This document shows positions 4,267 to 8,610 of a stretch of 24,854 bases of DNA, one piece after another; the first letter of the stretch is position 1; each line of letters opens with the position of its first letter. Source of the stretch: a virus. A program made the position numbers and the translations under genes. The DNA lies in the IMG/VR virus record IMGVR_UViG_3300028920_000255, positions 1 to 24,854 of that record. The stretch is one strand, 5' to 3'. The notes beneath the pieces are model-generated. The model did no database searches. It had not been told where the DNA came from and saw only the letters and a list, made by a program, of their open reading frames with translations.

Positions 4267-4447
4267 ACTTGTAAAATATAATTAAAAATTTACTTTTAAA
4301 ATTAAAATTTACTTTTAATTCAAAATAATTTATTTTAAAATAATATGCCTATTAAATAATGAAAAGTTTACTTTTAGTTTACTAATATTTACTTTTTAAA
4401 GTAAATGTTTACTTAAAATTTACTTTTATCTATGCTATAATAAAAAT
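4267..4447 (+). promoter_or_regulatory. Repeat-rich terminase upstream region (possible packaging or control site)
   Basis: This 181-bp gene-free stretch is extremely AT-rich. TTTACTTTTA or a close variant recurs: exact copies at 4289-4298, 4308-4317, 4367-4376 and 4419-4428; TTTACTTTTT at 4388-4397; TTTACT at 4378-4383; TTTACTT at 4408-4414. From 4367 on, the copies start 11, 10, 20 and 11 bases apart, close to whole DNA turns. An inverted repeat TTTACTTTTTAAAGTAAA lies at 4388-4405 and a perfect palindrome TTATTTTAAAATAA at 4330-4343. The region ends in an extended -10 box. Such arrays suit binding of a regulator or of the terminase, as in cos/pac sites, but I cannot tell which. Confidence 0.6.
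4433..4441 (+). promoter_or_regulatory. Extended -10 promoter of the terminase genes
   Basis: TGCTATAAT is a perfect extended -10 element (TGn plus TATAAT at 4436-4441). No good -35 hexamer lies 16-18 bases upstream; the sequence there is CTTAAA or TTAAAA. A GTTTACT heptamer occupies 4407-4413, roughly positions -41 to -35. The expected transcription start, about 7 bases past the -10 box, coincides with the ATG at 4448, so the transcript would have almost no leader. Confidence 0.6.
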
Positions 4448-5140
4448 ATGAACAAAAAAAGAAATTGGGAAAAAATATTTGAGGAACAAACAAATTCAGG
4501 ACTTTCAGCCAAAGAATATTGCAATGAAGAAGATATCAATTATTCTTTATTTTGCAGACAAAGAAGTAAGTTTACTAAAAAAGGAAAAGCAGTAAACCAC
4601 AAGGCTTCTAAAGCGAAAAAAGAATTAAAAAAGAAACTCAAAAGTAAACAATTGACCAAAAATGATAAGATAGTAAACTTTTTAGGTAAAGCCAATGATG
4701 ATGAAAAAGAATTGTTTACCGATCAAGATATTTTATGTGCTTTAGTGGAAACGAATTTTAATCTTTCTGATGCAGCCAAAATTTTAGATTGCTCTTATTT
4801 TACTTTATATAACAAGCTTAGAAAAAATGAAAACTTAAGAGATCAATACGATATATTACAAGATGCTATGTTAGATCAAGCTGAAATAGTGATACACGAT
4901 TTACTTTATTCACCGCACGACAAAGTTAGATTTAATGCTGCAAAACTTATGTTAAAAACAAAAGGTAAAAAACGCGGATGGACTGAAAAAATTGAACACG
5001 AACACATAGGCGATAAAAATAAACCTATTATTATATTGGATGCTGTTCCTTTTGAAGAAGATTTTGACCCTGATGAACCGCCTGATGATTTTTTAGATCC
5101 AGACACTAAACCAGAATCAGATAATAAAGATTTACAATGA
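4448..5140 (+). CDS. terS: Terminase small subunit (TerS)
   Basis: The DNA-recognition subunit of the packaging motor, assigned from its domain pattern and its position just before the large subunit (ATGA overlap at 5137-5140). Residues 7-41 (WEKIFEEQTNSGLSAKEYC...) resemble the HTH of IS66-type TnpA proteins ('W...I-x-E-q...SGLS-v-x-e-F-C'). A basic linker spans 42-75. A Fis-like HTH lies at about 104-127 (NLSDAAKILDCSYFTLYNKL). A helical segment at 128-185 with LMLKTKGKKRGWTEK is typical of TerS oligomerisation regions. The tail from 197 is very acidic. The start at 4448 fits the N-terminal domain, but no SD precedes it and the promoter's -10 box ends 6 bases upstream. The 5' third contains four GTTTACT/AGTAAAC heptamers. 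Confidence 0.85.
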   Translation: MNKKRNWEKIFEEQTNSGLSAKEYCNEEDINYSLFCRQRSKFTKKGKAVNHKASKAKKELKKKLKSKQLTKNDKIVNFLGKANDDEKELFTDQDILCALVETNFNLSDAAKILDCSYFTLYNKLRKNENLRDQYDILQDAMLDQAEIVIHDLLYSPHDKVRFNAAKLMLKTKGKKRGWTEKIEHEHIGDKNKPIIILDAVPFEEDFDPDEPPDDFLDPDTKPESDNKDLQ

Positions 5141-6363
5141 AACGTAAAATAAGATGCTCTAAAGTATATTATAAATATAAAAAAGCTTTAGAAGATGGCC
5201 ATGAACTTATTTTAAATTATGGCGGAGCAAGATCAAGCAAATCTTATTCGACAGCTCAATTAAAAATACACAGATTTTTAACTTTAAAAAAATATTCTCA
5301 ATTATGGTTAAGGAAAACGCTACCTTCTTTAAAAAGATCAATACTTAGAGATTTTTATACTATAATGTCTTATTATGGTTTAAAGTCAGGACTTCATTAT
5401 CATATCAATAAAACAGATATGCTTGCTACATGTTTGTATAACGGGAATACTATTGATTTTGTAGGTCTTGACAATCCTGAAAAAGCTAAATCATCACAAT
5501 GGAACGAAATTTGGATGGAAGAAGCCACAGATTTTTCATTTGATGATTATTTACAAATGGATTTAAGAACATCTGCGCCTGTTCACAACAAAGGAATAAA
5601 AAATACTTTAACATTAACGTATAACCCCATTGATGAATTTCATTGGATTAAAGAAAAAATATTTGATAATAACAGCATAAAAAAAGCTATTATTCACTCA
5701 ACTTATAAAGATAATCCTGCTTTACAATCTTTATATAAACAAAGAATTGAAAACCTTATAAACCAAGATATAAATTATTACAGAGTATACGCCAAAGGAT
5801 TATGGGGAAGGCTTGAGAACCTTATTTATAGTAATTGGTCAGAATTTAAAAATCATATTCCTGAAGGTGATGATGTTATATACGGCCTTGATTTTGGATA
5901 TGTAAATGAATCTGTTTTGGATAAAATAACATTAAAGAGACAAAAAAAAGGACTCCCAACAAAAGCATTTGTAGAAGAATTGATTTACGAATCAGGATTG
6001 ACAAACGAAATGCTTATTAAAAGAATGGATGAAGTTTTACCAAATAAAAAAGTTATGATTTACGCAGATCACAACAAGCCTGATTTTATAGATAAAATAA
6101 AAGAAGCCGGCTATTGCAATGTATTTCTTGCCAAAAAAGAAGTGTTAACTGGTATTGATACAGTTAAAAAATATCAACTTCATATTCATCAATCGGCAAC
6201 AAACACTTTAAAAGAAATTAAATCATATTCATGGAAAACAGATAAAAACAAAAGAGTTTTAGAAGAACCAGTTAAATTTATGGATCACGCGATGGATGCA
6301 ATTAGATACGCTTTACATTCTCATGAAAGTAAATACAGCGATATTACTTGTTTTTCTTTTTAA
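5137..6363 (+). CDS. terL: Terminase large subunit (TerL)
   Basis: The ATPase-nuclease that translocates and cuts phage DNA at the portal. The 408 residues contain both domains. The ATPase has Walker A GGARSSKS (29-36), Walker B with catalytic acidic pair IWMEEA (125-130) and a coupling motif LTYNP (160-164). The linker KGLWGRLENLIYSNW (220-234) is characteristic of the PBSX/phage terminase family. The RuvC-like nuclease has acidic residues in GLDFGYV (D252), YADHNKP (D311) and FMDHAMDAIRYAL (D383/D387). Length is normal for the family. It is translationally coupled to TerS. A 135-bp gap with its own promoter follows before the portal gene. Confidence 0.95.
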   Translation: MKRKIRCSKVYYKYKKALEDGHELILNYGGARSSKSYSTAQLKIHRFLTLKKYSQLWLRKTLPSLKRSILRDFYTIMSYYGLKSGLHYHINKTDMLATCLYNGNTIDFVGLDNPEKAKSSQWNEIWMEEATDFSFDDYLQMDLRTSAPVHNKGIKNTLTLTYNPIDEFHWIKEKIFDNNSIKKAIIHSTYKDNPALQSLYKQRIENLINQDINYYRVYAKGLWGRLENLIYSNWSEFKNHIPEGDDVIYGLDFGYVNESVLDKITLKRQKKGLPTKAFVEELIYESGLTNEMLIKRMDEVLPNKKVMIYADHNKPDFIDKIKEAGYCNVFLAKKEVLTGIDTVKKYQLHIHQSATNTLKEIKSYSWKTDKNKRVLEEPVKFMDHAMDAIRYALHSHESKYSDITCFSF

Positions 6364-6410: not shown

Positions 6411-6425
6411 GTGCAAATTTTGCAC
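6411..6425 (+). promoter_or_regulatory. Perfect inverted repeat beside the head-gene promoter
   Basis: GTGCAAATTTTGCAC has 6-bp arms (GTGCAA/TTGCAC) around a 3-base centre. It ends 5 bases before the -35 hexamer, which is itself TTGCAA. As a hairpin it is weak and has no directly adjoining U-tract, so an operator or activator site is more likely than a terminator. The binding factor is unknown. Confidence 0.5.
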
Positions 6426-6430
6426 ATATG

Positions 6431-6460
6431 TTGCAATTTTTTCATATATTGTGTTATAAT
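6431..6460 (+). promoter_or_regulatory. Sigma70-type promoter of the head genes
   Basis: TTGCAA at 6431-6436 and TATAAT at 6455-6460 are separated by 18 bases, and TGT precedes the -10 box, making an extended -10 (TGTTATAAT). Transcription should start near 6467, about 32 bases before the portal ATG. The promoter lies in the only sizeable gap between terL and the portal gene. Confidence 0.7.
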
Positions 6461-6498: not shown

Positions 6499-8610
6499 AT
6501 GTTTAATTTTATCAAATCCAAAATAAGTGACTTTGCAACAAGATCTTTTAGAAGTATAAGTGGAGAAATGTTTGCACGCGGTTTTTCAATGTTTGATATT
6601 GAAAGCCGATTTGGCGAAAAAGTTGTTGAACCGTTTAAGCAGGTTGATTTTGTTAATGCTTGTATACGCGAAATAGCTGAAGATATTTCAATGGTTCCAT
6701 TAAAGATTTATTCTCTTGATAAAGACAATCAAGAAATACCTATTGATTCTAATGATAAATTATATAAGTTGTTCGATAACCCTAACCCTTATATGGGAAA
6801 ACAGTCATTTATTGAGGGAACAAGCACGTTTACAAATATGAGAGGCGAATGTGTTATTATTGCAGAAAGACCGCGTATTGATGCAATACCTTTAAATTTT
6901 TATCCTGTTGATGCCAAATTATTAAAACCTATAATTGATAAAAGAACTAATCATATCATTAAATGGAAATATACTTTTACTACACCAGATGGAGCGCAGC
7001 AAGAATATTATTATGAACCTTTTGATATAATTCAAACAAAATTATTTAACCCTTTTGATTTCTTTAGAGGGCTTAACCCTCTTATAGCTTATATGATGAA
7101 AGCAAATACGTTATACAACGCCGATATTTATAATGAAAAATTCTTTTCAAACGGTGCGAATGTTTCAGGCTTCTTGCTTGCAAAAGAAGTTATGGGAGAA
7201 ACACAGCTAAAGCAGCTTGAAGCACACATGAATAAATATAAAGGTTCACGTAAAGCTTTTCAGACAATGTTTATAAACGGAAACGTAGATTATAAACAAG
7301 CAAAAGTTACCCATGAAGAAATGCAATTTTTAAAAACAAATTTTCAAAACGGTAAATCTATTTGTATGGCTTATGGAATGAACATCGCAAAATTAGGATG
7401 GTCAGACGAGGTTAAAAGTTTTGGCAGTCATAAAGAAATAAACAAAGAGCATTGGGAAGATTGCATACAGCCTCATGGGAATAGACTTGTAAATGCTTTT
7501 AATAATCAGTTTATGAGATATATTTATAACGGCAAATATAGAGTTAAATTTGATTATTCAGGTATTGATGCATTAAAAGAAGCTGAAAAAGAAAAGGCTG
7601 AAACAGCTAAATTATATTTTAGTATGGCGGTTCCTTTTAATGATATTAACAAAAAATTAAATCTTGGTTTTGAATCGATAGAAGGAGGGGATGTTGGATA
7701 CTTACCAATTAATCTTATACCTTCAACAGAAATTGGAGGAGAAGAAGAAGAAACAACAACAGACGAAGAAAGCAAAGAAAAAAATTATTTCAATGTATCT
7801 AAATTCAAAGAAATAGAAGATAAATTTGTTAATAAATTTTCTGAACATGTTGTTAAAGCAGCAAAAACTAAAATAGAAAAACAAAAAGAAATATATATTA
7901 AACTACAAAGGCCTATTGAAAAACAGTTTTTAGGTAAATTAAAAAAATATTTTATAGAGCAACGAAGCAGAGTTATTAAGCGTTTTAATGCTGAATTTAA
8001 TAAAGATTTAACAAGTGATGTTTTTCAGATCAAAAGCGAAACAGATAAATTAAAAAAAGTTTTGGCACCTTTATTTGAATTAGGTTTAGAAACAGGAGCG
8101 CAAAGCATAGCTGAATTGTTAGGTAATGCAGATTTTGAGTTTAAACCGATTGGCGTTTTTGCCGATTTTATAAATTTAAAAATAAAAACTATTCCTAAAA
8201 TTGTTTTGACTACTATTGAAAATGAGTTGAGAAGGACTATAAAAGAGGGAATTGAAGCCGGCGAAGGTATTAATGAATTAACAGATAGAATAAAAGCTAC
8301 TTATAGCACTATAGACAGATCGGGAGCGTTAAGAATAGCAAGAACGGAATCGGCATCAGCTATAAGCAAAGGCAGATATGAAGAAATGAAAATTGAAGGT
8401 GTTAAAAAACACACCTGGCTCACTGCAGCAGATGAAAACGTTAGAGACGGCCAAAAAGGAACATTTGACCACGCATCATTAGAAGGAATGACAATTGAAA
8501 TAGGAAAATCTTTTAATGATGATAATTTAAAATTCCCAGGTGATCCAGACGCTTCGCCTGGCGACATCATTAATTGCAGATGTCATACAATACCAGTGTT
8601 GGAGGATTAA
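6499..8610 (+). CDS. Portal protein fused to a MuF-like C-terminal domain
   Basis: Forms the dodecameric ring through which DNA enters the head and carries a minor head protein domain at its end. I choose ATG 6499 (703 aa, MFNFIKSKI...) because CGAGG lies just upstream; a TTG at 6481 is in frame but has no SD. Residues 1 to about 410 match HK97-type portals: NACIREIAEDISMVPLKIY near 50-65, LFDNPNPYMG, and the helical NFQNGKSICMAYG segment. A Glu-rich linker (EEEETTTDEES) and a helical region follow. The last 125 residues are the Mu gpF-like fold: RIARTES (613-618 region), HTWLTAADENVRDGQ, then GDIINCRCH with C693 and C695. No toxin domain follows the CRC motif. Confidence 0.9.
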   Translation: MFNFIKSKISDFATRSFRSISGEMFARGFSMFDIESRFGEKVVEPFKQVDFVNACIREIAEDISMVPLKIYSLDKDNQEIPIDSNDKLYKLFDNPNPYMGKQSFIEGTSTFTNMRGECVIIAERPRIDAIPLNFYPVDAKLLKPIIDKRTNHIIKWKYTFTTPDGAQQEYYYEPFDIIQTKLFNPFDFFRGLNPLIAYMMKANTLYNADIYNEKFFSNGANVSGFLLAKEVMGETQLKQLEAHMNKYKGSRKAFQTMFINGNVDYKQAKVTHEEMQFLKTNFQNGKSICMAYGMNIAKLGWSDEVKSFGSHKEINKEHWEDCIQPHGNRLVNAFNNQFMRYIYNGKYRVKFDYSGIDALKEAEKEKAETAKLYFSMAVPFNDINKKLNLGFESIEGGDVGYLPINLIPSTEIGGEEEETTTDEESKEKNYFNVSKFKEIEDKFVNKFSEHVVKAAKTKIEKQKEIYIKLQRPIEKQFLGKLKKYFIEQRSRVIKRFNAEFNKDLTSDVFQIKSETDKLKKVLAPLFELGLETGAQSIAELLGNADFEFKPIGVFADFINLKIKTIPKIVLTTIENELRRTIKEGIEAGEGINELTDRIKATYSTIDRSGALRIARTESASAISKGRYEEMKIEGVKKHTWLTAADENVRDGQKGTFDHASLEGMTIEIGKSFNDDNLKFPGDPDASPGDIINCRCHTIPVLED

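Follow-up and report, generated by a model that had tools for sequence, protein, structure and literature searches.

A heptamer iterated across the promoter and start of a viral small terminase gene: a proposed SPP1-like pac site

The window, i.e. the whole stretch of 24,854 nucleotides that was analysed, carries a small terminase gene (terS) followed by genes for the large terminase subunit (terL), a portal protein with a Mu F/SPP1 gp7-like domain (the gp7 model itself scoring under its cut-off), a capsid protein and tail proteins. From terS on, all of the long genes lie on the + strand. TerL matches TIGR01547 at 137 bits (cut-off 105) as well as Terminase_3. A promoter-like site ahead of terS, identified by consensus match only, shows a consensus -10 with TG extension (TGnTATAAT) and a poor -35; 6 nt lie between the end of its -10 and the terS ATG. 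This ATG is not preceded by a Shine-Dalgarno sequence, which most genes in the window possess, and from this and the position of the -10 the terS message may be leaderless. A second promoter-like site (TTGCAA-18-TATAAT with TG) occurs in the terL–portal gap, where two 20-bp repeats, TGCAAATTTTGCACATATGT, adjoin it (6412–6460).

The terS product is a member of the TerS family by alignment, profile and fold. Its residues 90–190 align with TerS proteins of other viral contigs, and 37 of the 46 members of the alignment match TerS family phrog_309. A predicted model, for which window and locus proteins were used, has good confidence at residues 91–180, with helices at 92–172. In structure comparison it comes closest to gp1 of Shigella phage Sf6 (Z 7.7 and 7.5 over 109 residues) and to the SF6 G1P DNA-binding domain (Z 5.5), these Z values being middling; Foldseek alone returned no significant fold match. 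The model and the family profiles together describe the architecture of an SPP1-type TerS, i.e. a helix-turn-helix (HTH) together with oligomerisation helices.

The first 86 residues of TerS precede the usual DNA-binding domain of this family. When residues 1–62 were tested alone, residues 3–52 matched the IS66 accessory protein TnpA (NF047593; E-value=3e-11) at 43.6 bits against a curated cut-off of 28, over profile positions 2–48 of 79, while the pairwise match to plasmid IS66 accessory proteins is weak (approximately 37% identity). This extra HTH, which is absent from the preliminary description of this DNA, is present in one of the 46 TerS homologues; in the searches made, no TerS with an IS66 TnpA-type HTH was found in other phages, nor was a gene for an IS66 transposase noticed in the open reading frames of the window.

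The preliminary description had drawn attention to the heptamer GTTTACT (AGTAAAC on the other strand), of which it listed seven copies in about 310 bp, with three more in the rest of the window. A recount of the 24,854 nucleotides returned exactly these copies: seven within 4366–4678, on the strands stated, three of them in the gap ahead of terS and four within the gene, and three in the remaining 24.5 kb (19371, 20615 and 23011); the spacings that it quoted (11, 30, 21 and 52) are likewise correct. The excess over chance that it had estimated by hand was borne out by simulation. Dinucleotide shuffles of the whole window predict 3.7 strict copies in total, and shuffles of nucleotides 4267–4700 predict 0.10, the highest count among 20,000 of them being 2. 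Among 200 third-order Markov simulations of the whole window, in which every 7-mer with at least two G/C was allowed to compete, none contained a 7-mer occurring seven times within 313 bp. As a count, seven was too low: when the first base is relaxed to RTTTACT, 12 copies are found in 4288–4678, where 0.4 would be expected from local composition, the additional ones reading ATTTACT (Table 1). RTTTACT is the common core of the cluster, no flanking base outside it being common to all copies. The copies are mostly forward ahead of terS and mostly reversed inside it, with a copy-free gap between. Predicted intrinsic curvature is high at the array (96th–99th percentile), peaking over the in-gene part; such values are unexceptional in this AT-rich record, and DNA bending was discarded as a special feature of the site.

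Table 1. Positions of the heptamer copies and associated features in the window
Feature	Position	Strand	Basis
ATTTACT, upstream outlier	4288..4294	+	word search
ATTTACT, upstream outlier	4307..4313	+	word search
GTTTACT, phased array position 0	4366..4372	+	word search, phasing
GTTTACT, phased array +11	4377..4383	+	word search, phasing
ATTTACT, phased array +21	4387..4393	+	word search, phasing
ATTTACT reversed, in inverted repeats with neighbours	4400..4406	-	word search
GTTTACT, phased array +41	4407..4413	+	word search, phasing
ATTTACT, phased array +52, overlapping promoter -35 end and spacer	4418..4424	+	word search, phasing
Promoter-like site TTAAAA-17-TATAAT with TG extension	4413..4441	+	consensus match
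Stretch without copies, predicted first packaging cut	4425..4569	.	inference, SPP1 pacL-pacC-pacR analogy
terS, 230 aa, no Shine-Dalgarno before ATG	4448..5140	+	alignment, profile, fold
IS66 TnpA-type HTH, TerS N-terminal extension, codons 3-52	4454..4603	+	profile
GTTTACT inside terS	4570..4576	+	word search, codon shuffle
GTTTACT reversed, inside terS	4591..4597	-	word search, codon shuffle
GTTTACT reversed, inside terS	4643..4649	-	word search, codon shuffle
GTTTACT reversed, inside terS	4672..4678	-	word search, codon shuffle
Standard TerS HTH DNA-binding domain, codons 87-131	4706..4840	+	model, structure comparison
terL, PBSX/SPP1-class large terminase	5137..6363	+	profile

The in-gene heptamers fall in terS codons 41–77, mostly in the linker behind the TnpA-type HTH. 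They are read in two frames and the peptides encoded there (SKFTK, KAVNH, KSKQ and KIVNF) are dissimilar, so that a peptide repeat is not their cause. Synonymous-codon shuffles within terS produced at least four strict in-gene copies in approximately one of 10,000 trials. Since this result is joined by the use of two frames and by the differing peptides, the DNA word itself appears to be under selection, as had been suggested from the presence of copies in coding sequence. The same data bear on the explanation that the cluster has no function. Its intergenic copies would then be what decay has left of a tandemly repeated AT-rich unit (AGTTTACTTTT), and those in the gene a coincidence in codons rich in Lys and Asn. 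Tandem Repeats Finder does report weak arrays of period 19 and 11 at 4280–4341 and 4365–4396, as such an origin would predict; however, the P value of about 1e-4 for the in-gene copies under codon shuffling, in two frames, and the variation of flanks and orientation among copies that share the 7-bp core alone make this explanation improbable.

Spacings of 11, 10, 20 and 11 bp separate the five forward copies directly ahead of terS (4366–4418) and place them on the same face of the helix; a scan of periods 10–11 gave R 0.98 near 10.3 bp, with P 0.002 after the scan. All 12 copies taken together are also phased (R 0.79, P 0.004), with a best period of about 10.15 bp, which is below that of free DNA and on which no weight is placed. 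With its neighbours, the reversed copy at 4400 forms two inverted repeats, TTTACTTT-TT-AAAGTAAA (4388–4405) and AAGTAAA-TG-TTTACTT (4399–4414), and a further inverted repeat inside terS pairs the forward copy at 4570 with the reversed copy at 4591.

The main rival to packaging is that a separate regulator of late genes, activator or repressor, uses this array as its operator and controls the morphogenesis operon that starts at terS, in which case the in-gene copies would be additional operators downstream, for looping or as a roadblock. Direct repeats that keep helical phase up to and across a promoter are what such a regulator would use, the palindrome at 4399–4414 would suit a dimeric one, and the long genes from terS on share the + strand; moreover, late transcription in phage SPP1 requires an early factor that is as yet unidentified (PMC6316719). 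A simple operator would nevertheless need fewer than twelve copies over 390 bp, of which four, mostly reversed, lie 120–230 bp inside the gene; the upstream half and the palindrome suit an operator, but the reversed in-gene copies are poorly accounted for by one. The second promoter-like site (6431–6460) has no copies nearby. None of the upstream genes tested could be assigned to a regulator family, and the HTH-like open reading frame at 2207–2557, a candidate regulator, had no family match. On these grounds the operator is considered unlikely.

The layout of the locus is that of a known packaging site. In phage SPP1, pac consists of direct repeats that reach across the late promoter into the beginning of terS (PMC4737164, PMC6316719); it overlaps the promoters PL1 and PL2, the ribosome binding site and codons of the DNA-binding domain, gp1 binds at pacL and pacR while gp2 cuts at pacC in between, and PL1 combines a canonical -10 with an atypical -35 (PMC6316719). 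A report cited in the reference list of PMC6316719 has the SPP1 terminase repressing its own synthesis. In the window, 12 copies of the iterated word are placed around the promoter-like site (4413–4441) and the ATG (4448), a predicted late promoter, whose -10 is canonical and whose -35 is atypical, lies by consensus match inside the array, and the terminase is of the PBSX/SPP1 class. The window thus follows the SPP1 plan, using the same word for its two flanks. An autoregulated pac site is therefore proposed; we regard this SPP1-like reading, with predicted TerS binding, a nearby cut and autoregulation of the terS promoter, as probable. The preliminary description had named a pac/cos-type site or a late-regulator site. 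The anatomy favours pac, yet the two are not clean alternatives, given that in SPP1, the most thoroughly studied pac phage with a terminase of this class, pac overlaps a late promoter and the terminase reportedly represses itself. The statement that no such motif is known holds for the word and not for the layout, i.e. repeats spanning the promoter and the start of terS, which is that of SPP1 pac (PMC4737164, PMC6316719).

Under the proposed pac reading, TerS would bind the RTTTACT copies that lie to either side of the point where terS starts. The mainly forward, helix-phased array over the promoter would correspond to a pacL-like flank and the mainly reversed group within terS to a pacR-like one. 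Bound TerS would then recruit TerL, which would make the first cut close by, probably in the copy-free stretch (4425–4569). The upstream array covers the terS promoter, so that TerS, on binding there, is also proposed to shut down its own late promoter. Two domains of the protein could share this work: the IS66 TnpA-type HTH at the N-terminus is the candidate, and likely, reader of the heptamer, while the standard TerS HTH ring would provide non-specific wrapping.

How the small terminases of headful phages select their own DNA is an open question, the purified proteins of pac phages mostly binding weakly and without sequence preference (review, PMC9611059). A small terminase that captured an IS66 TnpA-type HTH and reads an iterated heptamer, giving a headful phage a truly sequence-specific pac, would if true provide an answer; as a specific proposal it is offered tentatively, being possible and rather doubtful at present. 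The locus combines many phased copies of a defined 7-bp word with a TerS that carries an additional HTH, and word and reader are thus separately testable on short pieces of DNA and protein.

Relatives of the window were sought by means of TerS, TerL, the capsid and a tail protein. No close ones were found, TerL reaching 34–52% identity and TerS approximately 31% over its conserved part. More broadly, TerS relatives were found at 18–32% identity, too distant to bear on conservation of the word; a few of them carry arrays, which are built of other words, and the heptamer is not shared among the distant TerS loci. Repeated words at terS in 46–51 distant TerS loci showed no general excess (11 rank first, 7 being expected), and repeats at terS compared with those at other gene starts gave a Mann-Whitney P of 0.39, in a pair-count test that is insensitive, the window itself scoring only z 1.4. 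A general rule of repeat arrays at terS starts is thus unsupported by the rank and Mann-Whitney tests. These results count against the pac reading, whereas two individual loci, with arrays of other words at terS, count for it. The best TerS match (L003) contains five perfect 21-bp tandem repeats at 1348–1452, in the 5' coding part of terS, and in locus L157 a TTACACA/TGTGTA-like array lies directly ahead of the gene for a 111-aa TerS (about 210–440), possibly a pac array with another word.

Viral contigs were also scanned for the same word with a 21-base pattern, and the matches were mostly tandem repeats, regular arrays of 36-bp spacing, or chance. Among those set aside were L082, a tandem repeat unrelated to pac, and L075, in which six AGTAAAC copies (7944–8118) lie approximately 3 kb upstream of terS and the TerS is a distant relative of that of the window. 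In L073, twelve GTTTACT copies (1240–1541), several of them 10–11 bp apart, occupy an AT-rich gap beside a replication/primase-like gene, read by eye from the sequence. This flanking gene lends something to a third explanation, in which a replication initiator of the phage binds the array as an origin or as another kind of iteron site, AT-rich iterated words being typical of origins. A word shared with L073 can, however, be due to chance in AT-rich DNA, and that contig has no gene in common with the window in the test run. With no replication gene recognised next to the array in the window and four of the seven strict copies in terS coding sequence, an origin is very improbable.

The proposed pac site can be set against four known systems. 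The N-terminal HTH of IS66 TnpA (NF047593) matches TerS residues 3–52 above the curated cut-off; here, unlike in IS66, it is fused to TerS. P22 pac also lies within the terS coding sequence (PMC9611059), but is a single asymmetric 22-bp sequence without iteration. In lambda cosB a single word is repeated (R3, R2 and R1) as the TerS binding site (PMC4856287), as is proposed here, but its three sites all lie to the same side of cosN, an IHF site is present and the TerS has a winged HTH, whereas in the window twelve 7-bp sites are distributed over the two sides of the terS start and TerL is of the PBSX class. SPP1 pac (pacL-pacC-pacR) and its SF6 counterpart are the closest, sharing repeats that span promoter and terS, the type of -10 and -35, the terminase class and two flanks around a gap. 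SPP1 differs in having three unlike boxes, its pacL and pacR lacking shared identity (PMC4856287), whereas here one heptamer serves both flanks, largely in forward orientation ahead of the gene and reversed within it, terS has no ribosome binding site and the cut site is a prediction. The SPP1 layout was thus already known; what is new, within the searches made, is the use of a single word for the two flanks and the presence of a TnpA-type HTH in TerS.
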